Made by a program: the position numbers and the translations under genes
The notes under the pieces: generated by a model
The model's database searches: none
What the model saw: only the letters and a program-made list of their open reading frames with translations
Told to the model about the DNA's origin: nothing
Source: Granulicella sp. WH15
GTDB lineage: Bacteria; Acidobacteriota; Terriglobia; Terriglobales; Acidobacteriaceae
Direction of reading: 5' to 3'
DNA length: 64,000 nucleotides
Assembly (NCBI RefSeq): GCF_009914315.1
Contig: NZ_CP042596.1
Location: 2,356,001-2,420,000 of the forward strand
Part shown: positions 5,127 through 59,701 of the stretch, piece after piece
Numbering within the stretch: position 1 is the first letter of the stretch
How the letters are laid out: the number at the start of each line of letters is the position of its first letter

Positions 5127-5173
5127 ACCTATACAAAGTGATAATTGCGCCCGACCTAATACGCCTCTACGCT
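5127..5173 (+). promoter_or_regulatory. Promoter with 21-bp activator box, copy 1 (hydrolase gene)
   Basis: The box spans 5127-5147 and reads ACCTATACAAAGTGATAA then TTG. Its TTG opens a -35-like TTGCGC (5145-5150). After 17 bp comes a -10-like TACGCT (5168-5173). Transcription would start near 5180, giving a leader of about 70 nt before the hydrolase ATG at 5250. Four other copies lie at 24383-24429, 38101-38147, 42804-42850 and 59655-59701 with identical box-to-hexamer spacing. Confidence 0.75.
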
Positions 5174-5249
5174 TCTCATCAGCAGGTGAGTGCTTCCCGT
5201 CGTCTTAGGTTTGGTGCTGATCTTCACGGTTTCATCAAGGAGAAAGACA

Positions 5250-6041
5250 ATGCAAGTATTGAAGTTCGTTCGGAACGGTTTGGTGGCATGCGCCGCATTA
5301 CTCGCGATCACCGGTGCTGCCGCGAAGGCGACGGCACAAGCGCAAACCCCTTCAGGCGCAAAAACGGTGCTTCTCGTACACGGGGCGTGGGCAGACGGTT
5401 CGAGTTGGGCAAAGGTGATTCCCTTGCTCGAGGCGAAGGGCTTGCACGTCGTTGCGGTGCAGATTCCACTAACATCCTTCGCGGACGACGTCGCGGCTAC
5501 ACAGCGCGCCATTGACCTTGAGGATGGGCCGGTAGTGCTCGTCGGTCACTCGTACGGTGGAGCCGTGATCACCGAAGCCGGGAACGATTCTAAAGTGGCT
5601 GGACTCGTGTATGTGTCAGCCGTCGCTCCAGACAAGGGTGAGTCGGCTCTCGGACTCATTATGAGCGTTCCTACACCGATCGGCGCGGAGCTGCGCCCCG
5701 ACAAGAGCGGCTTTCTCAAGTTGACGCCCAAAGGCGTTGCAGAGGACTTCGCGCAGGATCTTTCAGCCAAAGAGATCGCAATTCTAACCGCGACTCAGGT
5801 GCCGGCAAATGCGGCAGCCATGAAGGGCGAGGTTACGAATCCAGCTTGGAAGTCCAAACCGTCGTGGTTCATCGTTGGCGGAAATGACCGGGCAATCTCG
5901 CCTATCCTCGAAGCGAATCTGGCAAAGAAAATCGGTGCGACAACAGTGACCGTTCCGTCCAGCCACGTGATCATGCTCTCCAAGCCCGCAAAGGTTGCGG
6001 AAGTGATCATCGACGCGGCGGCAAAGTCCGGCTCGAAATAG
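5250..6041 (+). CDS. Exported alpha/beta hydrolase
   Basis: A 263-residue alpha/beta-fold hydrolase of the small esterase-like group. A signal peptide covers residues 1 to about 30 (cleavage likely near ATAQA), so it should act in the periplasm or outside the cell. The oxyanion motif is LLVHGAWADGSSW. The nucleophile elbow is GHSYGG with S101, and the triad is completed by D213 (GGNDRAISP) and H239 (SSHVIM). ATG 5250 is chosen over an upstream in-frame start because AAGGAGA (5237-5243) sits just before it and a signal peptide follows. A promoter of the five-copy box family lies upstream. A lipoprotein paralogue is encoded at 7512. The substrate is unknown. Confidence 0.88.
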   Translation: MQVLKFVRNGLVACAALLAITGAAAKATAQAQTPSGAKTVLLVHGAWADGSSWAKVIPLLEAKGLHVVAVQIPLTSFADDVAATQRAIDLEDGPVVLVGHSYGGAVITEAGNDSKVAGLVYVSAVAPDKGESALGLIMSVPTPIGAELRPDKSGFLKLTPKGVAEDFAQDLSAKEIAILTATQVPANAAAMKGEVTNPAWKSKPSWFIVGGNDRAISPILEANLAKKIGATTVTVPSSHVIMLSKPAKVAEVIIDAAAKSGSK

Positions 6042-6052
6042 CATCATCCAAC

Positions 6053-6107
6053 ATCGCTTTCTCTCCGGAGGATGCTGATTCTTTCAGCTCCACCGGAGAG
6101 AGCGATG
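6053..6107 (+). terminator. Hairpin after the hydrolase gene
   Basis: CATCGCT/CTCTCCGG pairs with CCGGAGAGAGCGATG, with a two-base bulge, and a smaller GCTGA/TCAGC stem lies inside the loop. There is no strong T tract, but the position just after the stop codon fits a terminator. Confidence 0.6.
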
Positions 6108-6239
6108 CAAGCATGAGGATATAGAGTCCGTGATTCAACATGTGGTCTCTATTGGGGCAACGTTGGACGCCTCTTTCAGACTCAAAAGCTAGTTCAAAAC
6201 ATGCAGCAAAAAACCTATTAGTAGATAGTTTCCTCAATA

Positions 6240-6818: not shown

Positions 6819-6838
6819 TGCTGCCCAGATCATTCCCT
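6810..6838 (+). terminator. Terminator hairpin overlapping the TetR stop codon
   Basis: AGGGAATGAT (6810-6819) and ATCATTCCCT (6829-6838) form a perfect 10-bp stem with a 9-nt loop. The stop codon (6816-6818) lies within the left arm. Confidence 0.65.
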
Positions 6839-10775: not shown

Positions 10776-10791
10776 TGGCACGCCGTTTGCT
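10776..10791 (+). promoter_or_regulatory. Predicted sigma-54 promoter
   Basis: TGGCAC-GCCGT-TTGCT matches the -24/-12 consensus with the GG and GC doublets 12 bp apart. Transcription would start near 10803 and read into the SnoaL-like gene (ATG 11026). An NtrC-type activator with an intact GAFTGA loop is encoded at 36633-37652, but a link between them is only inference. No enhancer site was identified. Confidence 0.55.
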
Positions 10792-11505: not shown

Positions 11506-11517
11506 TGAGGGGGACAA

Positions 11518-24026: not shown

Positions 24027-24338
24027 TCAGATACCGCCTTGAGGTGACGAGGCCCACTCTGCTTCAAACATCTCGGATAAATACTTTACCTGGGTCTCCA
24101 CTAGGCCGATGAGAACTGTTCGTAAGTGCGGCCTGACGGCACGGGCCCATAGCAGTGGCTCAGATCTCGTCCGCTTAACTCTGGGACTTCCGAGCATAAG
24201 GAGATTGGTGCTATAAAGGGCGCCGGGGTTGATATAGGTTTCCGGCGATTGGGGGACGAGTACCGAATGCCCGAATCCTGTCAATGCATTGAAGCAAGCA
24301 TGTCGTACATTGGAGGCTGCATCAATCACTGCAATCAT
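24027..24338 (-). CDS. Degenerate receiver-like small protein
   Basis: A 103-residue protein starting IAVIDAASNVRHACFNALTG, which resembles the first strand and helix of a response-regulator receiver. The acidic pair is reduced to one Asp and no phosphoacceptor Asp is evident (LLMLGSPRV). No output domain. An in-frame ATG at 24362 would add eight residues. The assignment rests partly on context: it is divergent from a histidine kinase and has a promoter of the five-copy box family directly upstream. It may be a signalling partner without phosphotransfer. Confidence 0.5.
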   Translation of the reverse strand: MIAVIDAASNVRHACFNALTGFGHSVLVPQSPETYINPGALYSTNLLMLGSPRVKRTRSEPLLWARAVRPHLRTVLIGLVETQVKYLSEMFEAEWASSPQGGI

Positions 24339-24382
24339 CGGTTGGCTCCTGGCACCCGTCACTGCAATTCGCTTCGTGGTTA

Positions 24383-24429
24383 ATGGTAGCCCCTCCGATC
24401 CACGCTGCCAATTATCACTTTCTATAGGT
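24383..24429 (-). promoter_or_regulatory. Promoter with 21-bp activator box, copy 2
   Basis: Reading on the minus strand, the box (24429 to 24409) differs from the consensus only by G for C at position 8. It runs into -35-like TTGGCA (24411-24406) and, after 17 bp, -10-like TACCAT (24388-24383). Predicted start near 24376, about 38 nt before ATG 24338. Confidence 0.7.
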
Positions 24430-24555: not shown

Positions 24556-26304
24556 TTGGCGCATCTTAAGGCTTGCATATTTACGATACTTGTTTGCGCG
24601 TCTGCCGTGCTTGTCGGTTATTACCTGGATGAGCCAGGGTCAAGCCTTCTCATCGCAGCGATGGTTACGAGCCTCTTTCTCGGTAGAAAGGAGAGCCTCT
24701 TCGCCATTGGTTTATTGCTTATTCCTTTCGACTACCTTTTTCTGCAACCTAGATTCAGCTTCGCTATGACCTCCCATTCAGTTGAGAGACTTGCGGTATT
24801 CGTAGGAGCGATGCTCTTCGCAACCGAATTGATACACGCGAAGAAACAGTCCGATCGTTCCAGGCTGCAGGGGGAGATGGAGTTTCGCGCGCTTGCAGAA
24901 ACATGCCCGGACTGCATCCTCATCGTAAGCGACCAGCAGCTAATTCGATTCTTGAATCCTGCCGCAGTGAAGATGTTCGGCTATTCCCAAGAGGAGTTAC
25001 TTGGCATCCCCATATCGCGCCTGCTTCCTGAATTAGCTTTCAGCCTATCGCAGACCGAAGAATTTCTGGCTCTCCATAAGAATGGCAGCCGATTCCATGT
25101 AGAGTCCAGTTGGGGACAGTTTGCAGACAAGACGACAATCTTTCTGCGGGATGTAACAGACCGCAAGAGTATGCAAGCGCAACTTGAGGCAAGTGAGGCG
25201 AGCCTGCGCCTCACGCTCGATACGATTCCCGGCCTGGTGTACAGTCGGCCTCCAGATGGCGAGCTTGACTATGCAAATCGTCATCTGATGGATTTTTTCG
25301 GGTTCACCCTAGAGGACGTTAAACGTGGTGTCTGGAGGGACGGGCTACACCCAGACGAAACGGAGTTCGTGCTCTCGAAGATGAAAGAGGGCGCTGCTCT
25401 TGGGAAGCCTTACACATTCGACTGCAGGCATCGCTTGGAAGATGGCACCTACGGATGGATACACTCTGCGGTGGAGCCTCTCATAGGCCCGGATGGGCAG
25501 GTCGTTCGTTGGTATGGCCTGATAACTGACATAGGCGCCTGGAAAAAAGCAGAAGAGTCATTGCGCCAGACGCAGACGAGACTTGCGATAGCCTCTCGGA
25601 TCGCAGTCGCGTCAGAACTGGCTGCTTCTATTGTTCACGAAATTAGCCAGCCGCTTGCTGCTATGGTGGCGAATGGTCAATCCAGCCTTCGTTGGTTGGG
25701 AACCAACCCACCCAATCATGACAACGCTAAAGCAGCTGCCGAACGGATCGTTCGCGATGGGAAGGATGCAACTGAAATTATTCAGGGTCTCCGCAATCTC
25801 TTCAAACGCGCGGAACCGCAGAAATCAGCGGTTGCACTTCGAAAGATCGTAGGCGAAGTTTTGGCTCTGCTTCAGCCCAGAACTCAAAAGGAAGGCGTCC
25901 GGACTAAGTTGCAAATTGCACCCGACCTTCCGCCGATGTTAGGCGATCCCATTCAACTGCAACAGGTCCTGCTCAATCTCGTTTCAAACGCGATCGATGC
26001 AATGCACTCAGTTGTAGGTCGGTCCAAGAATCTCATGATCCGTGCTCGGCGGATCGACGACAACTCGATATTGACCGAGATCGAAGACTCCGGCACCGGA
26101 GTTTTAGATCATGAGAAGATTTTTGAGACCTTCTTTACAACCAAAGAAAACGGCATGGGGATGGGCCTCTCGGTCTGCAGGACCATCGTCACGGCTCATG
26201 GAGGTCGTTTATGGGCCTCCCCGGCATTTACATCCGGCACTGTCTTCTCGTTCACGATTCCGATTGAAACTGAGACACCTGAGGAAGTTATAACACCCAC
26301 GTAG
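24556..26304 (+). CDS. DUF4118-PAS-PAS sensor histidine kinase
   Basis: A 582-residue kinase. Residues 1-95 form a DUF4118-like four-helix membrane region (LVGYYLDEPGSSLLIAAM...). A PAS domain follows at about 110-215 and a second PAS with PAC motif at about 220-335. The HisKA box is SIVHEISQPLAAM with H361. The ATPase has an N box (LNLVSNAIDAM) and G boxes (EDSGTGVLDHEKIFETFFTT, GMGMGLSVC). It is built like FixL-type kinases that pair with FixJ regulators; two such regulators are in this window (3845, 38371) but none is adjacent. The start codon is TTG 24556 behind AAAGGA. Confidence 0.92.
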   Translation: MAHLKACIFTILVCASAVLVGYYLDEPGSSLLIAAMVTSLFLGRKESLFAIGLLLIPFDYLFLQPRFSFAMTSHSVERLAVFVGAMLFATELIHAKKQSDRSRLQGEMEFRALAETCPDCILIVSDQQLIRFLNPAAVKMFGYSQEELLGIPISRLLPELAFSLSQTEEFLALHKNGSRFHVESSWGQFADKTTIFLRDVTDRKSMQAQLEASEASLRLTLDTIPGLVYSRPPDGELDYANRHLMDFFGFTLEDVKRGVWRDGLHPDETEFVLSKMKEGAALGKPYTFDCRHRLEDGTYGWIHSAVEPLIGPDGQVVRWYGLITDIGAWKKAEESLRQTQTRLAIASRIAVASELAASIVHEISQPLAAMVANGQSSLRWLGTNPPNHDNAKAAAERIVRDGKDATEIIQGLRNLFKRAEPQKSAVALRKIVGEVLALLQPRTQKEGVRTKLQIAPDLPPMLGDPIQLQQVLLNLVSNAIDAMHSVVGRSKNLMIRARRIDDNSILTEIEDSGTGVLDHEKIFETFFTTKENGMGMGLSVCRTIVTAHGGRLWASPAFTSGTVFSFTIPIETETPEEVITPT

Positions 26305-36632: not shown

Positions 36633-37652
36633 TCAACTAAGCGCGAAGGAGTGATTGTCAGATCCCGGAGAAAAGATATTCGAAACGTCTTTCACTTCTA
36701 CCTCTGACCGCTTCGGCGACTTAGGAAACCCCAACTTTTCCATACGTGAGATTAGCGTCGTACGCGGAATCCCAAGCCGCGCTGCGGCGCCATTACTACC
36801 CCCAATGGTCCAATTGGTTTCATCGAGAGTCCGATGGATATGGGCTCTCTCAGCATCGGCGAGCGTGACGACTGCTCGTATCTGAGGAGCCACCGCAATC
36901 AGCCTCAGTTCCTTCTCGCGTGGGGTGAGGACATCGCCGGGCGACGTAATTATTGCCCGCTCCACGAAGTTTTGAAGTTCGCGAATGTTGCCTGGCCAAT
37001 GGTACTCGGCCAATAGCTCGAGAAGTTCGCATGGAATCTGGCTCACATGACGACCAAGCCGCTCATTGAGCCGACTCACAAAGTAGCGGACCAGCAATGG
37101 AATATCCTCTTTGCGCTGCCTGAGCGCTGGTAGGGCGATAGGAAAGACACTCAATCGGTAGTAAAGGTCCGCTCTGAAGGACTTTTCGTCGATCATCTGT
37201 TGAAGCTGAAGATTTGTGGCAGCGATGATTCTTACATCGACCTGCGTGGTTCGACTGCTACCGACTCGTTCGAACTGCTGCTCTTGGAGAACCCGCAAGA
37301 GCTTCGGTTGCAACTCGAGCGGCAGATCCCCGATCTCGTCAAGAAATAGCGTCCCGCCATGAGCCGCCTGGAACCGACCGACTGACTGTGAGACCGCACC
37401 GGTGAAAGCTCCTTTTTCATGTCCGAACAGCTCGCTCTCAAGCAACGCAGAGGGGATCGCAGCGCAGTTGACCGCGACAAAGGGCTTGTTACGTCTTGAG
37501 CCGTTATCGTGAACAGCTCGTGCCACAACCTCCTTCCCCGTCCCAGTCTCCCCCTGAATCAAAACGGCACAGCCTAGCGGCGCGACCATCTCTATATCTT
37601 CAATGACGCTACGAAATGCGTTACTTGAACCGATCAGGCTGTTTGAGAACAT
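36633..37652 (-). CDS. Sigma-54-dependent activator (AAA+ and HTH, no receiver)
   Basis: A 339-residue NtrC-type activator consisting of the central AAA+ domain and a Fis-type helix-turn-helix. Walker A is GETGTGKE (34-41), the sigma-54 contact loop GAFTGA is intact (81-86), Walker B is GGTLFLDEIGDL (99-110), and WPGNIRELQNFVERA is the sensor II region. The C-terminal HTH reads GAAARLGIPRTTLISRMEKLG. It lacks its own sensor domain. The gene upstream, 12 bp away in the same operon, encodes a free receiver domain, so control may be supplied in trans. The sigma-54 promoter at 10776 is one conceivable target. Confidence 0.93.
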   Translation of the reverse strand: MFSNSLIGSSNAFRSVIEDIEMVAPLGCAVLIQGETGTGKEVVARAVHDNGSRRNKPFVAVNCAAIPSALLESELFGHEKGAFTGAVSQSVGRFQAAHGGTLFLDEIGDLPLELQPKLLRVLQEQQFERVGSSRTTQVDVRIIAATNLQLQQMIDEKSFRADLYYRLSVFPIALPALRQRKEDIPLLVRYFVSRLNERLGRHVSQIPCELLELLAEYHWPGNIRELQNFVERAIITSPGDVLTPREKELRLIAVAPQIRAVVTLADAERAHIHRTLDETNWTIGGSNGAAARLGIPRTTLISRMEKLGFPKSPKRSEVEVKDVSNIFSPGSDNHSFALS

Positions 37653-37664: not shown

Positions 37665-38075
37665 TCAATTGCGCGGGGAATGTGTTTCAGATAAGCGATA
37701 TTTATTAATTGCGTCGTCGACGATCTTAAGAAGCTCCTCGCCGTCAAATGGCTTGTAGAGGAGCGCGATAGCGCCCAGTTCCATGGCGCGTTTAGCGGCC
37801 TCGTCGTCCTGATGTGCGGTTATGAACACAACAGGCAGCTTCGGCAGCTTCTGGATTGCTAGGCGTTGCAGTTCCCAACCGTCCATGCCCGGCATCCGGA
37901 CGTCAGTGATCAAACAGCAGGACAGCTCGATGTCGCAATCGTTCATAAACGCTTCTGCCGAGCTAAAGAGCCTCGTCTCGAAACCCGCCGATGCAAGGAG
38001 ATCGCTAACCGATTCACGAACTCGTATGTCGTCGTCGACCACAGCTACAACACACGGCTTAGATTGCTTAACCAA
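37665..38075 (-). CDS. Stand-alone receiver (CheY/FixJ-like) protein
   Basis: A single receiver domain of 136 residues: acidic pocket VVDDD, phosphoacceptor Asp in CLITDVRMPGMDGW, Thr in VVFITAHQDD and Lys in LLYKPFDGEEL. TTG 38075 is preferred over in-frame ATG 38102 and 38129. GGGAGGGA (38088-38081) is correctly spaced for it, and the predicted promoter (-10 at 38106-38101) would start transcription near 38094, downstream of both ATGs. It is co-transcribed with the sigma-54 activator 12 bp downstream, probably as its split receiver. Confidence 0.9.
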   Translation of the reverse strand: MVKQSKPCVVAVVDDDIRVRESVSDLLASAGFETRLFSSAEAFMNDCDIELSCCLITDVRMPGMDGWELQRLAIQKLPKLPVVFITAHQDDEAAKRAMELGAIALLYKPFDGEELLKIVDDAINKYRLSETHSPRN

Positions 38076-38100
38076 TACGATCCCTCCCAACTTCAACGTC

Positions 38101-38147
38101 ATCGTAGCCCGGTTGGAACGGCTTGCCAATTATCACTTTGTATAGAT
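38101..38147 (-). promoter_or_regulatory. Promoter with 21-bp activator box, copy 3
   Basis: Minus strand: the box (38147 to 38127) matches the consensus with T at position 2. It runs into -35-like TTGGCA (38129-38124) and, after 17 bp, -10-like TACGAT (38106-38101). The leader to TTG 38075 would be about 19 nt. It is divergent from the FixJ-like gene at 38371. Confidence 0.75.
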
Positions 38148-38370: not shown

Positions 38371-38982
38371 ATGCAAACTGATCGCCCTACCATCTACATC
38401 CTCGACGACGACCTCCGAATACGAGAAGCACTCTCGGATCTTCTCTGCGCTTCCGGGTACACGGCAATTGCATTTGAAACGGCTCAGGACTATCTATCCT
38501 TCGAAAAAGTGAATGCCGAGTCCTGTCTCATCCTCGATATGGATATGCCTGGGATGACGGGCCTCGAACTGCAAAAGGAGATCTCCGGCACAGCCGGCCC
38601 GCCCATCATTTTCCTCACCGGGCACGGCGACGTCCAATCGTCGGTCAAGGCAATGAAAGCCGGAGCCTTGGAGTTTCTATTGAAACCCTTCGACGAAGCC
38701 GACCTATTGCGCGCGCTGGAAGCCGCCCTTCAACAGGATCGGGCCGACCGAACGAGGCGGAATGAACTGGAAAACCTCAAGAGACGCTATGCACTCCTGT
38801 CTCCTCGTGAGCGCGAAGTTCTTCCCTTAGTGGTGTCGGGTCTATTGAACAAACAAACAGCAGGCGAACTAGGAAAAAGCGAGATCACGATTCGTGTACA
38901 ACGGGGCCAAATTATGAAAAAGATGGGTGCCCAATCGCTCGCCGATCTTGTAAGAATGACCGCGAAACTGGGTATCGAATAG
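38371..38982 (+). CDS. FixJ/LuxR-type response regulator
   Basis: A 203-residue two-domain regulator. The receiver has acidic residues D12/D13, phosphoacceptor D56 (LILDMDMPGMTG), T83 (FLTGHGD) and K105 (LLKPFD), so it should be phosphorylatable. The LuxR domain begins LLSPREREVLPLVVSGLLNKQ, and the recognition region is KSEITIRVQRGQIMKKMGAQS. It closely resembles the Asn-type regulator at 3845. It is divergent from the receiver/sigma-54 activator operon, whose promoter carries box copy 3. This makes it the leading candidate to bind the box. Its kinase may be the PAS kinase at 24556. Confidence 0.93.
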   Translation: MQTDRPTIYILDDDLRIREALSDLLCASGYTAIAFETAQDYLSFEKVNAESCLILDMDMPGMTGLELQKEISGTAGPPIIFLTGHGDVQSSVKAMKAGALEFLLKPFDEADLLRALEAALQQDRADRTRRNELENLKRRYALLSPREREVLPLVVSGLLNKQTAGELGKSEITIRVQRGQIMKKMGAQSLADLVRMTAKLGIE

Positions 38983-39801: not shown

Positions 39802-41316
39802 TTACTCAAAGCGAATCTTTGCCATCATTCCCTTGTCTTCGTGTTTAAGAAGGTGACAGTGGAAGACCGAGATGCCCCGAATGATTGGGTCTGTGAAGTC
39901 CATAATGAGATCGAGAGATTCACCGGGTTCCAAGTTCACCGTGTCCATCCACTTCGGATCACTGATCGCCACACCGGCTTTTCCGTACACAAGAAAATGC
40001 ACCTGATGAATATGAAATGGGTGTATCTCGTGTGTTTGGTTCACCACCTGCCAATGAATGTAGTTGCCCGTTTTCACCGTCACCATTGGGTCATCGGCGG
40101 GCTTGTATTTCTTGTTATTGATGTAGAAGCCATTCTTGTCTTCAGTAAAATTCACGACAAACGCGGCATTGCGCTGCTCTAGGTCATGTATAGCCTCTGA
40201 CGAAAGAGGCTTATATACTGTCTTCTGAGAGTCTGCCGCGCTGGACCTGCTCCGGGTCGACACGTCACGTCGCCCAACGAGGTCCAGATCGGCAATCACC
40301 ATTGCGGGGTTCGGATCACCATCCGCACCGGTATCGACACAAAGGCTGCGAAGAGATGCCTTCGTCCCAAGGGCAGGCCCGGTCACGATCGCTTCGAATC
40401 GTCCAGCTGGAGCAAGAAGGATATGCTGCACCGACTCAGTAGGATGATTGCGATCGTGATAGCCCAGAGGCATTCCGTCTAGCGCTACCATCGTCATTGC
40501 TTCCGAATCGATCGTAAGGTCCGCATAAAGATCAGGGGAGGCGTTGACGATGCGCCAGAACTGTTTCTCCCCGGGCGCAATTACGATCTTCGGCCGAACC
40601 GTCCCATTGACAGTAAAGATTCTGCCTGGGTTTCCGGTTGCGTTCCCGCAAATCGTCTGTGGCATATCCACGGCTGCCTCAAGACGGCTCGAAGCCTCGT
40701 CACCTTGACGAAGCTCGGCGTCGCGCAGGATCAGGATTTGCTCCTTGAGCCCACGAAGTCCTGGAACATACCGGTCGATGCCTTCGACAACGATAGCTCC
40801 CGACATGCCATCCAGATCCTGCTGGTAGCTCTCACCATGGGGATGAGTGTGGTACCAATAAAGCCCGGATGGTTGGTCGAATGGTATGTCCACCGTATAG
40901 CGAAGCGATTCGCCAGGCATGGCCATCATCGATAGGACATCATCTTGCGGAGACTCAGGAGATACGTGCAGGCCGTGAAAATGAAGATTTGTCATGTTCA
41001 TGCACGGGCCGTCTACACAAACTTCACCCGACGAAGTCTTCATGCGATTCAAGTAGGTTATGCGGAGTTTTTGACCGGGCGACACGCGAATCACAGGAGG
41101 TATCTCGCTCCCCTTAAAGGAGAACGCCCCGCGTCCCGAGGTGGGGTCGTTCACAGCACTGAGCACAAGCGGTGTTCGCACGTCAGGGGGTTCCTGCAGC
41201 GGTGTTCCAATTGGGGGGATGATCGCTTGAGCGAAGAGAACCTCGACACCAAGCGTCATGGCAAATGCCAATGAAACCGATGTTCGCATGAAATGGCTGA
41301 GCGGATGAGTGTTCAT
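39802..41316 (-). CDS. Periplasmic multicopper oxidase
   Basis: A 504-residue three-domain multicopper oxidase with a signal peptide (about 1-30). All four copper motifs are visible: NLHFHGLHVSP, YWYHTHPHGES, HEIHPFHIHQVHF and FHCHLLKHEDKGMMA (type 1 Cys in the last). The type 1 axial Met is supplied by GMMA. Possible roles are copper detoxification or oxidation of phenols; sequence alone does not decide. It lies downstream of oxalate decarboxylase on the same strand, but a hairpin at 41439-41471 separates them. Confidence 0.93.
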   Translation of the reverse strand: MNTHPLSHFMRTSVSLAFAMTLGVEVLFAQAIIPPIGTPLQEPPDVRTPLVLSAVNDPTSGRGAFSFKGSEIPPVIRVSPGQKLRITYLNRMKTSSGEVCVDGPCMNMTNLHFHGLHVSPESPQDDVLSMMAMPGESLRYTVDIPFDQPSGLYWYHTHPHGESYQQDLDGMSGAIVVEGIDRYVPGLRGLKEQILILRDAELRQGDEASSRLEAAVDMPQTICGNATGNPGRIFTVNGTVRPKIVIAPGEKQFWRIVNASPDLYADLTIDSEAMTMVALDGMPLGYHDRNHPTESVQHILLAPAGRFEAIVTGPALGTKASLRSLCVDTGADGDPNPAMVIADLDLVGRRDVSTRSRSSAADSQKTVYKPLSSEAIHDLEQRNAAFVVNFTEDKNGFYINNKKYKPADDPMVTVKTGNYIHWQVVNQTHEIHPFHIHQVHFLVYGKAGVAISDPKWMDTVNLEPGESLDLIMDFTDPIIRGISVFHCHLLKHEDKGMMAKIRFE

Positions 41317-41491: not shown

Positions 41492-42757
41492 TCAGATGAC
41501 TCCCTGGTTCTCGGCCGGGATCTTCATCACGTCTGCCTTGTCGATGTTCAGATGTGCTTTGATCATCTCGCTTGGAACACGCCTGAGCCATTGGTTCAGC
41601 GATACATCGAGGAACTGATCCGTAGCGAATGTCTCGAGAAACACCAGATCCGTGTTGCCTATGTTTTCGATGTAGTGTGGGGCATTATTGGGAACATAAC
41701 CCACATCGTTGGCATTGAAATCCATTGTGCGAGCATTGTCGACTGGGAAAAAGACAGTCATGCGGCCCTTACCGGAGATATAGAACTGCCACTCTGAGTC
41801 ATGCGGATGCCAGTGCATCTCGCGCATGCCACCCGGCTTCACCGTGACCAGCGCGGCCGCAATATGCTTTGAGACCGGGAAGTTCTTGGAATCCACGATG
41901 CGGACTTCCCCTCCCTTGCTGGACTTCGTCGGCTCCATAGACTTCAGGTGGAAGGTGTACTGGCTCCGAGCCGCAACCGCTTCGCCACCGATCTCAGCCT
42001 TGTCCGCGGCAAGCGAACCCGGTTCTTTCCCCGGGAAGATGTAGAGGGGCGCCTTCGGAGCGTTGGCGAACACACTTGCATCCAACCCAGTGTTCTTCGC
42101 CAGAACCTCAGGCGGGGTATGGGCAAGCCACTCCGAAACAAGCATTGTGCCATCCTCGGAGAACCCTCCTTGGTTAAACACAAGCAAGAATTCCGTTCCG
42201 TCGGGGCCAAGACCCTGGATCGAGTGCGGGTGTCCAGCTGGGAAGATCCAGAGATCCCCTTCCTCCACATCGCCGATGAACATATTTCCGTCGGGCTGCA
42301 TTACAGTGACGCGGGCTTTGCCATAAAGTACATAAGCCCATTCGTCTGCAGTGTGCCAGTGCATCTCACGATAACTGCCTGCCGTGAGGCGCATGTTTAC
42401 ACCTGCAATATCTTTTGAAGACGGGAGTACACGCTCCGTAACTTCGTGCGTCCAGCCGCCCTCTTCGACGCGCTTCTTGACAAGGTCAAACGAATACCAT
42501 ATCGGCACAACGTCGCCATGATCGGTTGGGGGAGGAGTATTGGAGTTTGGATTCAAGGCCAACAGGCCCTTATTCTCCTGTCCCGGATCGCTCGACGAAT
42601 GATCGTGCTCGGCTTTCTGAGTGCTCGCCTTCTCTTGCGCTTGACTAGTTATGCCTGAGAATGCGGCCGTGGCCAGAGCCACGGAACTTAGTCCAAGAAA
42701 GCTGCGACGGGTAGGGTGCTCCAGAGAAACTGCATCGCCTGCGTGATCGTTCATCAT
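41492..42757 (-). CDS. oxdC: Bicupin oxalate decarboxylase, Tat-exported
   Basis: A 421-residue bicupin that splits oxalate into formate and CO2 with Mn. A Tat-like signal (RRSFLGLSS, residues 18-26) precedes it. Metal ligands in cupin 1 are H133, H135, E139 (EMHWHTADEW) and H178; in cupin 2 H315, H317, E322 (EMHWHPHDSEW) and H361. The lid is SEDGT (200-204), where the B. subtilis enzyme has SENST. The proton-donor Glu is kept (E201), favouring decarboxylase over oxidase. ATG 42757 is chosen: the upstream in-frame start at 42832 lies before the predicted transcription start. Its promoter has box copy 4. The formate dehydrogenase encoded 10 kb away could use the product. Confidence 0.9.
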   Translation of the reverse strand: MMNDHAGDAVSLEHPTRRSFLGLSSVALATAAFSGITSQAQEKASTQKAEHDHSSSDPGQENKGLLALNPNSNTPPPTDHGDVVPIWYSFDLVKKRVEEGGWTHEVTERVLPSSKDIAGVNMRLTAGSYREMHWHTADEWAYVLYGKARVTVMQPDGNMFIGDVEEGDLWIFPAGHPHSIQGLGPDGTEFLLVFNQGGFSEDGTMLVSEWLAHTPPEVLAKNTGLDASVFANAPKAPLYIFPGKEPGSLAADKAEIGGEAVAARSQYTFHLKSMEPTKSSKGGEVRIVDSKNFPVSKHIAAALVTVKPGGMREMHWHPHDSEWQFYISGKGRMTVFFPVDNARTMDFNANDVGYVPNNAPHYIENIGNTDLVFLETFATDQFLDVSLNQWLRRVPSEMIKAHLNIDKADVMKIPAENQGVI

Positions 42758-43339
42758 CCTAGCCTTTCGGGTTGAAAATAGGGGGAGCCGGAGATCGAAC
42801 CTGATGATAGTGCCACCGCGAGGAGCCCACAATTATCACTTTGTATAGGTTTAGCTAGAGGATTCGGGCGGAGGTTATTCCATGATTGGCTAGGGAGGGC
42901 ACTATCGTTAGCCATTTCCCCTTGTATTCCGACTAAGGCGTGTCAATAATCAGGATAACTGTCACTTCTATGACTTTCCTAAGCTGGAGATTAGTCGATT
43001 TAAGCGAATCGGTAGCTGGATGAAACTGTCGGAGACTTCAAATATCTGTTTGAATGCGAGAGCGAATCGGACGAACTTCGGCCACCCGATTCACGCTGTC
43101 CACACATTGTCAATATATATAAAACGATAGTTGTGGATCACCATCGGCGACTAATACAATGGGCGTCTAGAACCTATGGCACTCTCTCGATCCAGTGCCA
43201 AAAAGAGAAGATGAGATCTCGTCGACGATGTCGTATCTCGATCTTGCTCTCCATCCGATCGGTGGAGAGCTTTGGCTGGGTGATCACATCGAAGTAGCTA
43301 AACCGTTGCTCAAGCTGGCGCACCAAGGGTGATATCGCA
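42758..43339. other. Intergenic region between oxdC and the respiratory operon
   Basis: Contains box copy 4 near the oxdC end and AT-rich sequence around 43110-43130 that may hold the respiratory operon promoter. A minus-strand frame at 43174-43340 (VRQLEQRFSYFDVITQPKL) reads protein-like but has no start of its own and no recognised family. Confidence 0.35.
42804..42850 (-). promoter_or_regulatory. Promoter with 21-bp activator box, copy 4 (oxdC)
   Basis: Minus strand: the box (42850 to 42830) matches the consensus exactly. It is followed by -35-like TTGTGG (42832-42827) and, after 17 bp, -10-like TATCAT (42809-42804). Predicted start near 42797, a 40-nt leader before ATG 42757. Confidence 0.75.
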
Positions 43340-52258: not shown

Positions 52259-55200
52259 ATGAGCCAAGTAGAGACTGTCACTACCCGCAAAATAGATCCG
52301 CAGATTGGCCGCTCTCAAGTGGAGATATCTGTCGACGGTGAGACAGTCTCCGCTAGCGAGGGCGAGCTGCTGGTGGAAGCTGTCCTCCGACACAAAGAAA
52401 TTCCGCACATCTGTTATCACTCTCCCCTCATGGGACCGATCCAGACTTGCGACACTTGCATGGTCGAAGTAGATGGGAAGCTCGTAAGATCGTGCGGGAC
52501 GAAGGTCACGGCAGGCATGAAGGTCCTGGCAGAGTCGGCCCGTGCCAAAGACGCTCGGGCTGAAGCTTTCGATGTGATTCTCGGTAACCACATGCTCTAC
52601 TGCACCGTCTGCGACAACAACAACGAGAACTGCAGGGTCCACAACACCGCCTTGGAGCTGAATGTTCAGCACCAGGAGCACCCATTTACGCCCAAGCCAT
52701 ATGAAGTAGATATGTCGAACCCCTTCTATCGGTACGATCCGAGCCAATGCATTCTCTGCGGGCAATGTGTGCAGGCATGTCAAACGGTTGAGGTGAACGA
52801 GACCCTATCCATCGGCTGGGAACTGGATCATCCACGAGTTCTCTGGGATGGTGGAATGCAGATAGCTGGGTCCAGTTGCGTCTCTTGCGGTCATTGCGTG
52901 ACGGTCTGCCCTTGCAATGCATTGATGGAGAAGTCGATGCTCGGTGAGGCCGGATTTTTGAGTGGTATGCCGAAGGCTGCGCTCGACAAGTTGATCGACG
53001 TGGTAAAGGCTGTCGAACCGGAGATGGGTTACGGCGCAATTATGCAAGTCTCACAGACCGAGTCAAAGATGCGCGAAGAGCGCACCAAGCGCACTAAGAC
53101 GGTCTGCACTTATTGCGGCGTCGGATGCAGCTATGACGTCTGGACAAAGGATCGAAAGATTCTCAAGATCGTTCCTCTACACGGTGATGCAAACCAGATC
53201 TCGACCTGTGTCAAAGGCAAGTTTGGATGGGATTTTGTTAACCATGAAGATCGCCTTCAGGCACCTCTGATCCGGGAAGGCAGTGGGTTCCGAGAAGCAA
53301 CGTGGGACGAGGCCCTGAGCTTCATCTCGACAAAGTTGACCGGCATCAAAGAAAAGCACGGAGCCGATTCAATCGGCGTCATCGTGTCGTCGAAGACGAC
53401 CAATGAAGATGGCTTCCTCATGCAGAAGCTGGCGAGAGCCGTGATCGGAACGAACAACGTCGACAACTGCTCTCGCTACTGCCAGTCTCCCGCTACGATG
53501 GGACTGTTTCGAACGGTCGGTTATGGTGGAGACTCCGGCTCCATTGAAGACATCGGTCGTTCCGCTTTGGTGATGATCGTTGGCGCGAACAGCGCGGAGA
53601 GTCACCCAGTGCTCGCGACTCGGGTCAAGCGCGCCCACAAGCTTCACGGACAGCGGTTGATCGTCGCCGATCCTCGAGCCAATGAGATGGCCGAACGCGC
53701 GGACATTTACTTCCGTCCTCGCCCCGGTACGGATCTGGTGTGGCTCTGTGCGATGAGCCGTTACATGTTCGATAACGGACATGCGAAATTGGAGTTCCTC
53801 GACAAATGGGTGAACGGCGTGGACGAGTATCGTAAGAGCCTCGAACCCTTCACGATGGAGTACGCATCGAGAATTTGCGAGATTCCCCTTGAAACACTGG
53901 AACGGATTGCACAAGAGATAGTAGCTGCCGAGACGATGTGCATTTTGTGGGCGATGGGCATCACCCAGCACATTGCAGCGTCTGACGGTTCGACGGCGAT
54001 CTCGAATCTCCTTCTCGTCACTGGAAACTATATGCGGCCAGGCTGCGGCGCATACCCACTCCGCGGCCACAACAACGTCCAGGGCGCAAGCGATATCGGT
54101 GCCATGCCCAATAGCTATCCCGGATATCAGGACGTCACTGATCCAACCATCCGAGAAGAATATGAGAAGAGTTGGAACGTCAAGCTTTCGCCCAACCGTG
54201 GCCTCGACAACCATCAAATGGTCGAGGCAATCTACGAAGGAAAGCTCAAGGCTATTTATCTGGCTGGCGAGGACATGATTTCTGCCGATTCCAACGCCAA
54301 TGTGGTCGCCGGGGCGTTCGAGAAGCTTGATCTCTTCGTCGTTCAGGATATTTTCTTCAGCGAGACCTGCCGATACGCTGATGTCGTGCTCCCTGGCGCC
54401 CCAGCGCTCGAGAAAGACGGGACATTTACGAACACCGAGCGACGAATTCAACGTCTTTATCAGGCTCTGCCGGAGATGGGCGACAGCAAGGCTGACTGGA
54501 AGATCACACAGGATATTGCCAATCGTCTCGGAGCAAACTGGAACTACAAACATCCGTCTGAAATTATGGACGAACTTGCCTCGTTGTCCCCTCTCTACCG
54601 AGGCGTGAACTATGAAAGGCTCGAGGGTTACAACACCCTCCAATGGCCAGTTGCAGAGGACGGAACTGATCAGCCAATTCTCTACCTGGACGGCTTCGCC
54701 TTTCCGGATAAGAAAGCAAGACTGTATCCAGTAGGGTTTCACGAGCCTACCGAAGCGTTGAATGATGAGTTCGATCTTTTCCTGAATAACGGAAGGCTTC
54801 TTGAGCATTTTCACGAGGGCAACATGACCTACCGGGTTTCTGGTATTCGAGAGGAAACACCCGAACGTTATCTCGAAATCTCAGAGGAGTTGGCAAAGGA
54901 ACGCGGATTGGAATCAGGGCGCTGGGTACGGGTGACAAGCCGGCATGGGTCCCTGAAGATCAAGGTTCTGGTCACTTCTCGCGTCTACGGAAAACAGGTC
55001 TATCTTCCTCTATTGTCACGTGAAGGTCCCATCAACATTCTCACCGGATCTCAGGCGGATGCGGCAACGAACACACCCGCGTACAAGGAGACGGCAGTCA
55101 ACATAAGGGTCCTTCCGGAACAGGGATCAAATCCTCTTCAACGGCACAACTTCCGATACTCAGGCAAGCCCACACCCCAACCAGGAGTAGAGGTGGAGCG

Positions 55201-55270
55201 CAAATGGAAGCGCAAGGACTATCGGATGCCCGGCTCCGAAACTCTTGTTCAGATTCAACCCCAGAAATAA
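52259..55270 (+). CDS. fdhA: Formate dehydrogenase, molybdenum/tungsten catalytic subunit
   Basis: A 1003-residue enzyme oxidising formate to CO2. N-terminal [2Fe-2S] domain (Cys in ICYHSPLMGPIQTCDTC and RSC, about 49-81); NuoG-like His/Cys cluster region (CTVCDNNNENC); two [4Fe-4S] sites (CILCGQCVQAC, CVSCGHCVTVC); the [4Fe-4S] of the catalytic part (TVCTYCGVGCSYD); and the bis-MGD domain. The metal ligand is C408 (NCSRYCQSPA), so it is a Cys not a selenocysteine enzyme. The build matches B. subtilis YrhE/YjgC. No separate NAD-binding subunit is encoded nearby, so the electron acceptor is unclear. Confidence 0.93.
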   Translation: MSQVETVTTRKIDPQIGRSQVEISVDGETVSASEGELLVEAVLRHKEIPHICYHSPLMGPIQTCDTCMVEVDGKLVRSCGTKVTAGMKVLAESARAKDARAEAFDVILGNHMLYCTVCDNNNENCRVHNTALELNVQHQEHPFTPKPYEVDMSNPFYRYDPSQCILCGQCVQACQTVEVNETLSIGWELDHPRVLWDGGMQIAGSSCVSCGHCVTVCPCNALMEKSMLGEAGFLSGMPKAALDKLIDVVKAVEPEMGYGAIMQVSQTESKMREERTKRTKTVCTYCGVGCSYDVWTKDRKILKIVPLHGDANQISTCVKGKFGWDFVNHEDRLQAPLIREGSGFREATWDEALSFISTKLTGIKEKHGADSIGVIVSSKTTNEDGFLMQKLARAVIGTNNVDNCSRYCQSPATMGLFRTVGYGGDSGSIEDIGRSALVMIVGANSAESHPVLATRVKRAHKLHGQRLIVADPRANEMAERADIYFRPRPGTDLVWLCAMSRYMFDNGHAKLEFLDKWVNGVDEYRKSLEPFTMEYASRICEIPLETLERIAQEIVAAETMCILWAMGITQHIAASDGSTAISNLLLVTGNYMRPGCGAYPLRGHNNVQGASDIGAMPNSYPGYQDVTDPTIREEYEKSWNVKLSPNRGLDNHQMVEAIYEGKLKAIYLAGEDMISADSNANVVAGAFEKLDLFVVQDIFFSETCRYADVVLPGAPALEKDGTFTNTERRIQRLYQALPEMGDSKADWKITQDIANRLGANWNYKHPSEIMDELASLSPLYRGVNYERLEGYNTLQWPVAEDGTDQPILYLDGFAFPDKKARLYPVGFHEPTEALNDEFDLFLNNGRLLEHFHEGNMTYRVSGIREETPERYLEISEELAKERGLESGRWVRVTSRHGSLKIKVLVTSRVYGKQVYLPLLSREGPINILTGSQADAATNTPAYKETAVNIRVLPEQGSNPLQRHNFRYSGKPTPQPGVEVERKWKRKDYRMPGSETLVQIQPQK

Positions 55271-55291
55271 GGGGAGAAAGGCAAGGACGAT

Positions 55292-55750
55292 ATGGCAGTA
55301 GCTGTCGATTTCCGCGAGTTCACTCCCCGCAATTCAAGGGAGGATCTTATCCGCAAGGTGGAGCACGCCCCCGTAGAGCATGCAGAGGCAGTCCTTGCCG
55401 CCTACGACTTACTGCAGCGTTTGCATGAGAAGGGGATCATCGACCTTCTGAATGGTCTTCTCAGCGCGGGCGATACCGTGGTCGACCACGTTGTCGATGT
55501 CGTCTCCTCGAAGGAGGCCGTCACCGCACTGCGAATTGGACTTATCTTCACAAACCTGCTCAGTTCCATCGACGCCGATAAGTTGCACGCAGTCATCGCG
55601 GACGCTGAGAACGAAACACCCTCCCTGCTGTCGATCGGGAAGCAAGCGACCTCGAAAGATGCCAGGCGGGGGATGGCTGCGGCTGTCGGACTGCTCAATG
55701 TATTCGGGGCTGCCCTGCGAACCGCCAACGAAGGCAAGAAGAAAAGTTAG
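55292..55750 (+). CDS. DUF1641 protein paired with formate dehydrogenase
   Basis: A 152-residue helical protein of the DUF1641 family (LLSAGDTVVDHVVDVVSSKEAVTALRIGLIFTNLLSSID), homologous to YrhD, which adjoins the YrhE formate dehydrogenase in Bacillus. GGGGAGAAAGG precedes the ATG. Its regular pairing with this enzyme class suggests a subunit or assembly factor. Confidence 0.85.
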   Translation: MAVAVDFREFTPRNSREDLIRKVEHAPVEHAEAVLAAYDLLQRLHEKGIIDLLNGLLSAGDTVVDHVVDVVSSKEAVTALRIGLIFTNLLSSIDADKLHAVIADAENETPSLLSIGKQATSKDARRGMAAAVGLLNVFGAALRTANEGKKKS

Positions 55751-55759
55751 CATAGCGTC

Positions 55760-56752
55760 ATGCGACCAAGCTTTTCATCGGTTGCAATAAGAGCGGGCCA
55801 AATGGATACCTTTGGGGCAGAAACGAATCAGGACCGTGATATATCCGATGGCGATCATTCACTAGAAAGAGTAGTGATTGATCGAGTGGCTGGGATCTCC
55901 TCTCAGCAGGCCGAAGACTGCTTGGCAGCAGAAGAGCCGCTCGAGATTCAGCTTGACTACGGCCCTTCCGGCGCGAGAGCTTTGAAATCAATATCCGTGA
56001 CAATGCGGACTCCCGGAAATGATTTTGAACTTGCTGTTGGTTTCCTGATGACCGAAGGAGTCGTTCAAGACGTGAACGACATCCGACGCATCTCCTATCC
56101 GCACAGGGGAGATGTTTCCGATTCTGTTGAGAGCGCTGACAGGAAAACCGCCCTTCCCTATCGTTCCAGGAACAATGTTGTCTTGATTGAATTGGAAACC
56201 GATGTGACAGTACCTCTTGCAACGCTTGAACGCAATTTCTACACGACCTCTAGTTGCGGCATTTGCGGCAAAGCGTCCCTATTGGCCTTGCAGACGGTAT
56301 GTCCGCCGCGCAGGGAAAACACGACCACAATTCAGGTAGAGACGGTTTATACGCTGCCCAGTTCCCTGCGGAATGCCCAACGTGTCTTTGATCGAACTGG
56401 AGGTCTACACGGCGCCGGACTCTTCAGCCCTGAAGGGAAACTTCTTGGGCTGCGCGAGGACGTGGGAAGGCACAACGCCGTAGACAAGCTGCTTGGATCA
56501 GAGTTTTTGGCGGATCGCACTCCTCTTCGGCATAGGGTTCTCCTGCTCTCAGGTCGCGCCAGTTTCGAGTTATTGCAGAAAGCGCTGATGAGCGGGGTAT
56601 CCATCGTGGCGGCTGTCGGTGCGCCTTCAAACTTAGCAGTGCAGGTGGCCAGGGAGTTCGACATCACTCTTATCGGATTTTTGCGTCAGGATCACTTCAA
56701 TATCTATAACGGAGCAGCACGCGTCTTAGGACGCAGTACGGGGAATGGGTGA
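55760..56752 (+). CDS. fdhD: FdhD, sulfurtransferase for formate dehydrogenase
   Basis: A 330-residue FdhD. It transfers sulfur from a cysteine desulfurase to the molybdenum cofactor, which formate dehydrogenase needs for activity. The sulfur-carrying Cys pair is visible as SSCGICGK (C166, C169). Other blocks: PLEIQLDYG, MRTPGNDFELAVGFLMTEG, DRTGGLHGAGLF, GREDVGRHNAVDKLLG (with L before R) and LSGRASFELLQKA. The N-terminal 35 residues are a poorly conserved extension. Confidence 0.95.
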   Translation: MRPSFSSVAIRAGQMDTFGAETNQDRDISDGDHSLERVVIDRVAGISSQQAEDCLAAEEPLEIQLDYGPSGARALKSISVTMRTPGNDFELAVGFLMTEGVVQDVNDIRRISYPHRGDVSDSVESADRKTALPYRSRNNVVLIELETDVTVPLATLERNFYTTSSCGICGKASLLALQTVCPPRRENTTTIQVETVYTLPSSLRNAQRVFDRTGGLHGAGLFSPEGKLLGLREDVGRHNAVDKLLGSEFLADRTPLRHRVLLLSGRASFELLQKALMSGVSIVAAVGAPSNLAVQVAREFDITLIGFLRQDHFNIYNGAARVLGRSTGNG

Positions 56753-57141: not shown

Positions 57142-57638
57142 CTGTGCGTTTGGCGATCCGCTGACTGGGGCTGGTTTGCTTCGTCTCCATCCGAGTGAGC
57201 TAAACCTGCAGGACTCCAGATTAGGTCCGAGTCAACGCATGATCCTTCGTCGTTGTGAAAGTGTACCGCCCGATCTGGTACTTGATGCAGCGGAATGGTT
57301 CTGTAACCACCGCTCGGCTGGCCTCGACTATACAAAAGTATACTTGCCCCTCTCACTCCAGGTCTTTAGCATCTGCGTAGCGGTCCGGTCTCGCCAGAAG
57401 GTTGGTCGATCTGCTTCCCAAGCAAGTGAGAACTTCAAATAGCCACCGTGTACAAACTGAGGCCAGACGAGGTCTTGGGATATGCCCGCAGTATGTATCT
57501 GTCATCTCCTGGAGTTTAAGCCGAGGCTAGAATAAGCTCCGGATGCGAGTTTCGATCCGATCTGTCACCATTTGAAGCGACCCACGGGCGCCCATGAAAA
57601 AGATCGGAGACTTGCGCGATTGTCGACCGAGGTGAAAA
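57142..57638. other. Intergenic region, nothing recognised
   Basis: About 500 bp between the formate dehydrogenase cluster and the marC-like gene. An overlapping plus-strand frame to 57442 has no family features. No hairpin or promoter motif stood out. Confidence 0.35.
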
Positions 57639-58328
57639 TTGAACGACCTTTTTAAGCACTTTTTTATAGGCTTCAGCGCCTTAATGCCTCTAGTCAATCC
57701 GCCGGGGTCAGCTCTTGAGTTTTTGGGTATTGTCGGTTATCAGTCCGACGAATCGTACAAAAGCCTGGCGCGAAAGATCGCGATCAGCACGGTCTGCTTC
57801 TTCGTTGTGGGTGGGCTTCTGGGCTCCTATATTTTGGAATTCTTTGGCATCTCTCTTGAGATTCTTCAGGTCGGCGGAGGGATTGTCGTCGCGGCCATGG
57901 GATGGTCGCTGCTCAACCAGCAAGGAAGCACAAAGGTAGAACAGAGCGACGACTTAAAAATAACCTCATCTCAAAAGAAAAATATCTCGTGGGAGTCTGG
58001 GGTCTTCTATCCGCTAACCTTCCCCGTGACGGCGGGCCCTGGGGGGCTGGCTGTCATGTTGACATTAAGCGCACAAGCAAGAGGCGGTTCGATCAGCGAC
58101 AGGCTTCTTGCATATGCAGGATTGATGCTTGCGGTAGTTATCCTTGGCATACTTGTCTATGTCTGCTATGCATATGCCCCCAAGATCGCCAAAAGAATCT
58201 CACCGTCTACCGTGCGTGGAATTCTAAGGATCATCGCCTTTATTCTGCTTTGCATTGGTGTACAAATCGCCTGGAATGGTCTCCAGCATCTCTTGATTGG
58301 AGTGCTAACGAGTGTCGCTCATCGGTAA
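57639..58328 (+). CDS. MarC family membrane protein
   Basis: A 229-residue protein with six predicted helices. The family opening FIGFSALMPLVNPPGSALEF and the central PLTFPVTAGPGGLAVMLTLSA are clear MarC features. MarC proteins are of unsettled function; the name's antibiotic-resistance link has not held up. The start is TTG 57639 behind AGGTG. Confidence 0.9.
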   Translation: MNDLFKHFFIGFSALMPLVNPPGSALEFLGIVGYQSDESYKSLARKIAISTVCFFVVGGLLGSYILEFFGISLEILQVGGGIVVAAMGWSLLNQQGSTKVEQSDDLKITSSQKKNISWESGVFYPLTFPVTAGPGGLAVMLTLSAQARGGSISDRLLAYAGLMLAVVILGILVYVCYAYAPKIAKRISPSTVRGILRIIAFILLCIGVQIAWNGLQHLLIGVLTSVAHR

Positions 58329-58923
58329 GTCAAGAGAGAGATTGGGACACTCAACAGAACAGCCCGATTTAGATGGATTTGTGCTCGTGCTCCGGCTTTC
58401 AGCGTCTCCAGACCCAATGGTTTGCGTTCAGAATTAGCCTCTTCGATTCCGCAAACACAACCTTAGGCTCCTTTCATCCCTGAGGAGAGGAGCCTAAAGT
58501 TGCACCCCGCCATTGATCAGCCTTTCGGCTAATCAGAATTGGCGCAGGTCTTGTGCTTACAGAGGCAGGCAATCTCTACCTCCCGCTTCCTGCAGTACCC
58601 CAACGAAAGGTAGACATGCGAGCCAGGTCCAATCTATTGGCCTATCGATAGCCTCCGGCCCGAATTGGGAATCGATCTGAATAAGCTGATTTCACCTCTT
58701 CCTCTTGGAATATGCGCCAGAGAGGACTGCCTCGAACGTCAGTTCCAAGAATTAGCAATGTCACCTATCCGGTGCGAGTTCAGCCCATGTCGAAATCTCG
58801 ACTATGTCCGATGGTGAACCCACAAAATTCAAATAATCGGTATCGTTTAACTGGAAGCTTGGATATATCGAGTCATGACGCTGATTATTCTTGTTTCTGC
58901 ATGTTTCAACCTTTCAGAACCGC
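58329..58923. other. Convergent intergenic region with one terminator
   Basis: 595 bp without a supported gene, lying between the convergent marC-like and ECF sigma genes. The only structure seen is the hairpin at 58463-58497. Confidence 0.4.
58463..58497. terminator. Terminator hairpin
   Basis: TTAGGCTCCT (58463-58472) and AGGAGCCTAA (58488-58497) form a perfect 10-bp stem with a 15-nt loop between convergent genes. Confidence 0.65.
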
Positions 58924-59547
58924 TCACCGCTCGGCAAATTGTGTTTTCAGCAGTCTTCGAAGCTCTGCACGAGCTCGCACCAACCGGGATTTCACAGCTG
59001 CCACCGAGATGTTGAGGGCTAGAGAAACGTCACGGGCTGATCCGCCCGTCTGTTGAAGTTCAATGACGGAGCGGAGATGCGCGGGTAGGCGGCTGATCGC
59101 CTTGTGCAAGCTGGTGGCCCGTTCGTTATGAATATAGAACTCATATGGTCCCATCGTCTTGTCGGCAGGATCGAACATGATCCACGTATCCGTGTCGCCT
59201 CCTCCTATGTAGATCGACACTTCGGGATTTCTACGGCGCCGTCTGAGTACTGTAAGTGCGGAGTTGATCCCGATACGGGTGATCCAGCTCGAGAAAGTGG
59301 CTCGCTCATCGAAGCTGTTCAGTGCCCTGTATGCCCGGAAAAAGCAATCCTGGAGTGCATCCTCTGCGTCTGGCGGGCTTTTCACTATGCGATAAATTGC
59401 ACGGTAAATCATAGGAGAACAGCGATCACAGAGTTCAACGAACGCGCGCTTATCTCCCGCCTTCGCCGCAGCCATGAGGATTTCGTATCCCGTGTCCGGG
59501 ATCGAGTTGCTGCAGTCGATATTGGGCTCGCTGACGGTAACTTCCAC
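58924..59547 (-). CDS. ECF-type RNA polymerase sigma factor
   Basis: A 207-residue group IV sigma factor. Region 2: FVELCDRCSPMIYRAIYRI, AEDALQDCFFRAYRAL and FSSWITRIGINSALTVLRRRRR. Region 4: ISRLPAHLRSVIELQQTGGSARDVSLALNISVAAVKSRLVRARAELRR. The linker carries YIGGGDTDTWI. GTG 59547 is the start, with AGGGGG upstream. No anti-sigma gene adjoins it. Its promoter carries box copy 5, so its own level is probably set by the regulator of that regulon rather than by autoregulation. Confidence 0.92.
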   Translation of the reverse strand: MEVTVSEPNIDCSNSIPDTGYEILMAAAKAGDKRAFVELCDRCSPMIYRAIYRIVKSPPDAEDALQDCFFRAYRALNSFDERATFSSWITRIGINSALTVLRRRRRNPEVSIYIGGGDTDTWIMFDPADKTMGPYEFYIHNERATSLHKAISRLPAHLRSVIELQQTGGSARDVSLALNISVAAVKSRLVRARAELRRLLKTQFAER

Positions 59548-59654
59548 ATGCTCCCCCTAAACATCTGAGAATATCCTTGCAATTAGCCCTTGCGGCTTTG
59601 CGCTGGCATCTACGGAGAGAGCCATTCCGCATGGGCATCGCTCTTGATGCTTTC

Positions 59655-59701
59655 AAAATAACTACGGCGTAAAGTGGGCGCAATTATCACTTTGTATAGG
59701 T
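59655..59701 (-). promoter_or_regulatory. Promoter with 21-bp activator box, copy 5 (ECF sigma)
   Basis: Minus strand: an exact consensus box (59701 to 59681), then -35-like TTGCGC (59683-59678) and, after 17 bp, -10-like TATTTT (59660-59655). Predicted start near 59648 gives a leader of about 100 nt. With copy 1 it shares five further bases (CGCCC) after the box. Confidence 0.72.

Follow-up and report, generated by a model that had tools for sequence, protein, structure and literature searches.

The stretch analysed here, called the window, is 64,000 nucleotides of the genome of Granulicella sp. WH15 (bases 2356001-2420000 of a one-contig genome of 4.67 Mb), a member of the Acidobacteriota, which are common soil bacteria. 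As shown in Table 1, the window contains five copies of a 21-bp box, together with genes for two FixJ-like response regulators (RR1 and RR2), a histidine kinase, a single-domain receiver, a sigma-54 activator and several enzymes. An earlier note, made from the letters of this DNA alone, had described the box as the mark of a regulon. A re-scan of the window found all five 21-mers at the coordinates and on the strands given there, and only columns 2 (C/T) and 8 (C/G) vary among them. In all five copies a TAnnnT hexamer stands exactly 17 bp past a -35-like hexamer TTGNNN.

Table 1. Boxes, genes and other features in the window (positions count from the first base of the window).
Feature	Position	Strand	Remarks
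Box 1	5127..5147	+	-10 TACGCT 5168-5173; into exported alpha/beta hydrolase gene
Box 2	24409..24429	-	-10 TACCAT 24383-24388; divergent gap between small open reading frame and histidine kinase gene
Box 3	38127..38147	-	-10 TACGAT 38101-38106; into single-domain receiver and sigma-54 activator genes
Box 4	42830..42850	-	-10 TATCAT 42804-42809; into oxalate decarboxylase gene
Box 5	59681..59701	-	-10 TATTTT 59655-59660; into ECF (extracytoplasmic function) sigma factor gene
Candidate weak box	43113..43133	+	TACAAT at 18 bp; 5' of cytochrome-oxidase-like gene run from ~43340 (identity by eye)
RR1, FixJ/NodW-like response regulator	38371..38982	+	receiver and GerE helix-turn-helix (HTH), Pfam; likeliest binder
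RR2, second FixJ-like response regulator	3848..4546	+	box 1 lies 0.7 kb downstream; alternative binder
Histidine kinase, candidate sensor	24556..26304	+	DUF4118, two PAS regions, HATPase_c; HisKA just under cut-off
Single-domain receiver	37665..38084	-	Response_reg only
Receiver-less sigma-54 activator	36633..37652	-	AAA+ and Fis-type HTH (Pfam)
Exported alpha/beta hydrolase (Abhydrolase_6)	5250..6041	+	AAGGAG before ATG; export judged by eye
Small protein, unknown family	24027..24344	-	behind box 2
Bicupin oxalate decarboxylase (OxdC) family protein	41492..42757	-	TIGR03404, 501.7 bits (cut-off 254.2)
Multicopper-oxidase-like protein	39802..41316	-	next gene after OxdC; CueO model below cut-off
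ECF-type sigma factor	58924..59547	-	behind box 5
Sigma-54 promoter-like site, 12/12	10776..10791	+	~200 bp upstream of SnoaL_4 gene 10990-11505

The earlier note had proposed scanning the genome and its relatives with the box joined to a -10 element. In the whole 4.67-Mb genome this found a sixth exact copy (2310900-2310920, minus strand) with TACACT at the same 17-bp spacing, which is an out-of-sample success for that model. The only other copy with at most 3 mismatches in the genome, at 2581631, has no -10 and lies inside a kinase-like coding sequence; it was taken as a chance match and rejected as a regulon member. The reversed control pattern gave no copy. The flanks of the six exact copies are unconserved, as had been claimed, save for the -10 and two positions: the one directly 5' of the -10, a C in 5/6 copies, and box column 25, likewise a C in 5/6. 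Within the window, no site beyond the five boxes had 4 mismatches or fewer, and the single 5-mismatch site is that at 43113 (+). Box variants with a -10-like hexamer stand at 36452 (+), 43113 (+) and 57329 (+), the last at least 260 nt from a MarC-family gene. The claim that all copies point into a gene held for the five and for the sixth, and failed for the weak box at 36452, which faces a convergent gene from its 3' side.

To avoid circularity, the spacing was also examined with the box alone (at least 14/18 matches) in a 440-kb region of this genome, in loci found by the box alone and in 30 loci (L091-L120) picked by response-regulator similarity alone. TAnnnT stood at exactly 17 bp in 20 of the 27 non-redundant box-only sites, at 18 bp in 2 and at 19 bp in 1 (the G030 site); with the five window copies removed, the 17-bp fraction was 15/22. 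An exact site at 464036 in Granulicella paludicola (G392, also locus L032), with TATGGT at 17 bp, was outside the 27 because its locus ended too near. The 17-bp spacing is real. An operator that abuts or overlaps the -35 at a fixed spacing from the -10 is the arrangement of class II activator-dependent promoters, and the box shows this geometry.

The box with CTAnnnT (at most 3 mismatches) was then scanned for in 250 genomes of the family. There were 45 sites with box plus -10 in 27 genomes, whereas the reversed pattern gave 3; when G000, G392, G427 and G012, on which the pattern had been modelled, were left out, 29 sites in 23 genomes remained against 2. A C preceded the -10 in 40 of 49 non-redundant scored sites, that C being part of the score. 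The box alone, at 2 mismatches or fewer, occurred in 4 of 399 genomes of the class: the genome itself, two of the genus Granulicella and one other without a -10. The box was found in few genomes of class and family and is therefore a minority trait even within the family.

What accompanies the box in these genomes is a FixJ-like regulator. RR1 has both domains of the FixJ/NarL type above their cut-offs (PF00072, 83.1 bits; PF00196, 56.4 bits). Against NF006900, the NCBIfam equivalog for FixJ proper, it scored 183.2 bits, under the cut-off of 255, and is therefore called FixJ-like only. In the window RR1 and the receiver and activator genes are transcribed in opposite directions, away from box 3, which lies between them. 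In relatives the recurring order has the kinase first, then the FixJ-like regulator, the box, the single-domain receiver and the sigma-54 activator, incomplete in some loci. A box lies 13-127 bp from the regulator gene in seven loci (L074, L077, L082, L084, L085, L088 and L089; L085 and L089 are near-identical and share the same box site), and the receiver and activator genes follow 3' of the box in seven loci of relatives (L082-L087 and L089). The window's histidine kinase has a homologue (70% identical) that adjoins a response regulator and boxes in Granulicella. Among the 30 loci picked by regulator similarity, a scored box together with its -10 was present in 10; the spacing was 18 bp in L093 and 17 bp in the rest. 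L103 and L107, with a 13/18 box before the receiver gene and the -10 at 18 or 16 bp, bring the total to 12/30, and L102, a borderline 12/18 box, would make it 13/30. By a motif search, 12 of these 30 loci contain a receiver gene; a box of at least 13/18 lay upstream in 9 of these 12, with TAnnnT at 16-18 bp in 9/9. Taking the box and homologue tables as the same draw of 250 genomes, an RR1 homologue (E≤1e-40) was present in 23 of the 27 genomes with a box and in 60 of the 223 without one (Fisher p=5e-9, with no correction for kinship). The genomes with a box and no RR1 homologue (G015, G318, G338 and G559) all had 3-mismatch sites only. The earlier note had named FixJ-like proteins as the likely binders, and both the adjacency and the enrichment point the same way.

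The activator gene downstream of box 3 encodes a bacterial enhancer-binding protein, with a Sigma54_activat AAA+ domain, HTH_8 and a GAFTGA loop in its translation; a sigma-54 factor, found by its DNA-binding domain, is encoded in the genome. It is not an NtrC-type response regulator, since its AAA+ domain begins at residue 6 and the receiver is a separate gene. By their domains the hydrolase, the receiver with its sigma-54 activator, the oxalate decarboxylase family protein and the ECF-type sigma factor are what the earlier note predicted behind the boxes. The degenerate receiver that it placed behind box 2 was not recovered: that protein had no Pfam hit, PF00072 included, and no BLASTP alignment to the single-domain receiver.

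Homologues of these targets carry boxes in other genomes, and in more than one genus. The hydrolase is boxed in four genomes including its own (homologues 86-90% identical in G392, G427 and G562), OxdC in two (93% identical in G562) and the sigma-54 activator in G562 (85%). The multicopper oxidase homologue of Granulicella G392 (76% identical) has a box of its own. Outside the window a malic enzyme gene is a predicted box target, its first start 292 nt past the predicted transcription start; boxed malic enzymes in G012 and G028, two near-identical loci, are more distant (39-46%). Weaker boxes at 2344470 and 2346994 precede another hydrolase gene and a disulphide-oxidoreductase gene, and elsewhere a DUF1348 gene (G515) and an Abhydrolase_3 gene (G012) are boxed. 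A target was identified for neither the L075 (G029) nor the L088 (G353) site.

Over 49 sites, complementarity peaks between box columns 9 and 10 (mean 0.49), and some variants, TATACAAACGTATAATTG and TATACCAAGGTATAGTTG among them, display the inverted repeat in full, suggesting that the box is an imperfect inverted repeat TATAC-N4-GTATA. With the last base of the -10 set at -7, the centre of the repeat was computed to lie at about -43.5, and its end adjoins the -35. An activator at about -45 overlapping the -35 had been proposed; the part that stands is a box overlapping or abutting the -35 of a sigma-70-type promoter, and the centre is refined to about -43.5.

In the reading that we favour, with a probability of about 0.7, the box would serve a FixJ-like two-component regulon as its operator, coupled to a weak sigma-70 promoter. 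A PAS histidine kinase would phosphorylate a FixJ-like regulator, whose dimer would bind TATAC-N4-(G)TATA at the computed position. The bound dimer, abutting the -35, would act as class II activators do, by recruiting RNA polymerase. The recurring output would be the single-domain receiver, often with the receiver-less sigma-54 activator, as a feedback or relay arm; further outputs would be the secreted hydrolase, oxalate decarboxylase, malic enzyme, multicopper oxidase and the ECF sigma factor. RR1 is the likeliest binder here; its paralogue RR2 may bind alongside it or in its place. Both the choice of paralogue and the step of activation are inferred.

Switches of this type are known elsewhere. 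StyR is of the FixJ type, and the StyR encoded on a Pseudomonas putida plasmid is 45.5% identical to RR1. In Pseudomonas fluorescens, the two-component regulator of StyS/StyR activates PstyA from the high-affinity site STY2 at about -40 (PMC2442086). The activating site near -40 resembles the computed box centre at about -43.5; that system differs in driving a styrene catabolic operon and in its IHF-assisted control. In the FixL/FixJ systems of Caulobacter and Sinorhizobium, the single-domain receiver FixT is induced by the system and is a feedback inhibitor of the kinase FixL (PMC7078487). The likeness to the present loci lies in a FixJ-type regulator and in a receiver gene predicted to be under its own system's regulator; the box is upstream of a single-domain receiver gene, a receiver domain alone as in FixT, in several loci. 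The differences are that the receiver here often precedes a sigma-54 activator gene, and that RR1 and the kinase score under the FixJ and FixL cut-offs (219 bits for the kinase against 850 for the FixL model). Among the matches listed from the open-licence literature, none held this box or a FixJ-like regulon in Acidobacteria, in keeping with the earlier note's view of a previously unmarked regulon. The box signal thus looks undescribed, though the type of switch is familiar. It would provide a testable operator, with named predicted targets, for one set of the FixJ-like two-component systems that Acidobacteriota have.

Several observations weigh against an operator read by a FixJ-like regulator. 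The inverted-repeat centre leads narrowly, the next-best centre reaching 0.46, and the window copies pair at 3 of the 5 repeat positions. Four of the 27 box-only sites had TAnnnT at no spacing from 10 to 26 bp; the site in G117, with 2 mismatches, and that in G010, with 3, have no TAnnnT. No convincing box was found within 1.5 kb in 17 or 18 of the 30 loci picked by regulator similarity; two of these, L104 and L119, contain a receiver gene and scored no better than shuffled sequence. In the family, 60 of 250 genomes have the regulator without a box at this stringency, and the recognition-helix residues fail to separate regulators with a box from those without. The closest plasmid homologues of RR1 among the matches listed (at most 58% identical) are in NodV/NodW-NwsB-like rhizobial clusters with the order kinase-regulator-receiver-regulator; the NodW-like loci examined had no good box, nor had the five rhizobial plasmid records searched (plasmids only). 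In G562 and G427, boxes precede close homologues of the window targets (85-93% identical) while their regulators are only ~50% identical to RR1 or RR2, and RR1 is therefore not the sole reader everywhere.

This last observation bears on a rival in which the promoter class is the same and its reader is RR2, another FixJ paralogue or an unrelated factor that merely lies nearby. RR2 is encoded 0.7 kb from box 1, and in G427 and G562, where the hydrolase has its box, RR2-like helices occur among the ~50% identical regulators. RR2 is, however, no better conserved there than RR1 (46-49%), and boxes less than 130 bp from a regulator gene adjoin RR1-like proteins with SEIT-type helices. A third response regulator, RR3, is encoded at 2578246-2578833 of the genome. 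We regard a different reader as unlikely. A repression operator, where a FixJ-like or other factor bound at about -50 to -37 would stand in the way of RNA polymerase, is improbable. A box abutting the -35 would also fit steric repression, but the -35 (TTG, with the last three bases unconserved) and the -10 (TAnnnT) are both weak, like those of promoters that depend on an activator, the spacing from box to -10 is fixed, and StyR activates from its site near -40 (PMC2442086).

The position of the six exact copies raises another alternative. All lie within a 190-kb segment (2.27-2.46 Mb) of 54.7% GC, the neighbouring stretches having 62.1% and 63.0%, which suggests that the segment may be acquired DNA. 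With the weaker boxes, the segment has some 11 sites. A GC content of 55% returns at both ends of the 440-kb region, beyond these flanks, and a megablast of 24 kb of the window against plasmids gave only short conserved stretches in three records. The box could be a mobile-element or recombination repeat, scattered over this low-GC segment and without a regulatory role; this is very improbable, for the copies have little in common beyond box and -10, the -10 keeps its spacing in other genera too, and homologous genes are boxed in other genomes. The idea of a replication-terminus or recombination site was rejected: the cumulative-skew minimum of the 440-kb region is at ~2.54 Mb, outside the six-site cluster near mid-contig, and the orientation of the copies is mixed. 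The 190-kb segment has a weak skew. That 18-21 bp of box form an extended -35 for another sigma factor, for instance the ECF-type one encoded behind box 5, is hardly credible despite the ECF gene being among the targets, since the 17 bp from box to TAnnnT is that of sigma-70 promoters and the box is, to our knowledge, longer than any -35 element.

If the box is the operator of a FixJ-like regulon, its targets suggest that a single signal governs the use of oxalate and malate together with a secreted hydrolase and an ECF factor, and we infer that decarboxylating organic acids is their theme. The sigma-54 activator behind box 3 could extend such a regulon. The sigma-54 promoter-like site at 10776 is the only perfect match in the window and in the 440 kb scanned, where by our own arithmetic ~0.015 and 0.1 perfect matches would be expected by chance; it is a single case, found after looking. 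The Granulicella homologue of the SnoaL_4 protein (73% identical) has a box upstream instead of a sigma-54 site, and no activator homologue was found in the fetched Granulicella SnoaL_4 locus. A two-tier relay is conceivable, though we hold it doubtful: the FixJ-like regulator would act, by way of a single sigma-70 operator, on metabolic genes and on a split NtrC (receiver and receiver-less activator), the latter would act on sigma-54 promoters, and genes could shift in evolution between direct control by the box and indirect control by sigma-54. If it were true, the SnoaL_4 gene would be a case of control by the box in Granulicella and by sigma-54 here. A zinc-type alcohol dehydrogenase gene is also downstream of the site (site and genes together, 10776-12441).

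Beyond the family, 12 loci were read out of 558 plasmid records with a regulator homologue. A relaxed scan of these found three weak sites (Cupriavidus, Paraburkholderia and Sinorhizobium) against none for the reversed pattern. When a stricter pattern was applied to 8 of the 12 records, the Cupriavidus record alone scored, with two sites; the remaining seven had none. On the Cupriavidus plasmid (L127, 4475) a box-like site, followed by a correctly spaced CTACCAT, stands just 5' of a receiver-like start beside a FixJ-like regulator. On a Pantoea plasmid, fdhF adjoins a similar FixJ-like regulator. In the window, genes for a formate dehydrogenase alpha subunit (TIGR01591, above cut-off) and FdhD lie at 52259-56752, ~10 kb from the OxdC gene, and a minus-strand open frame of 2728 codons runs over 27899-36085. 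A second box form, ATAC-N4-GTAT (CATACAAACGTATAATGG or -AG), was seen in two closely related genomes of one genus (L076 at 4443, 11751 and 19528; L090 at 2444, 10199 and 17507), where it precedes fumarase, carboxymuconolactone-decarboxylase-like and other genes.

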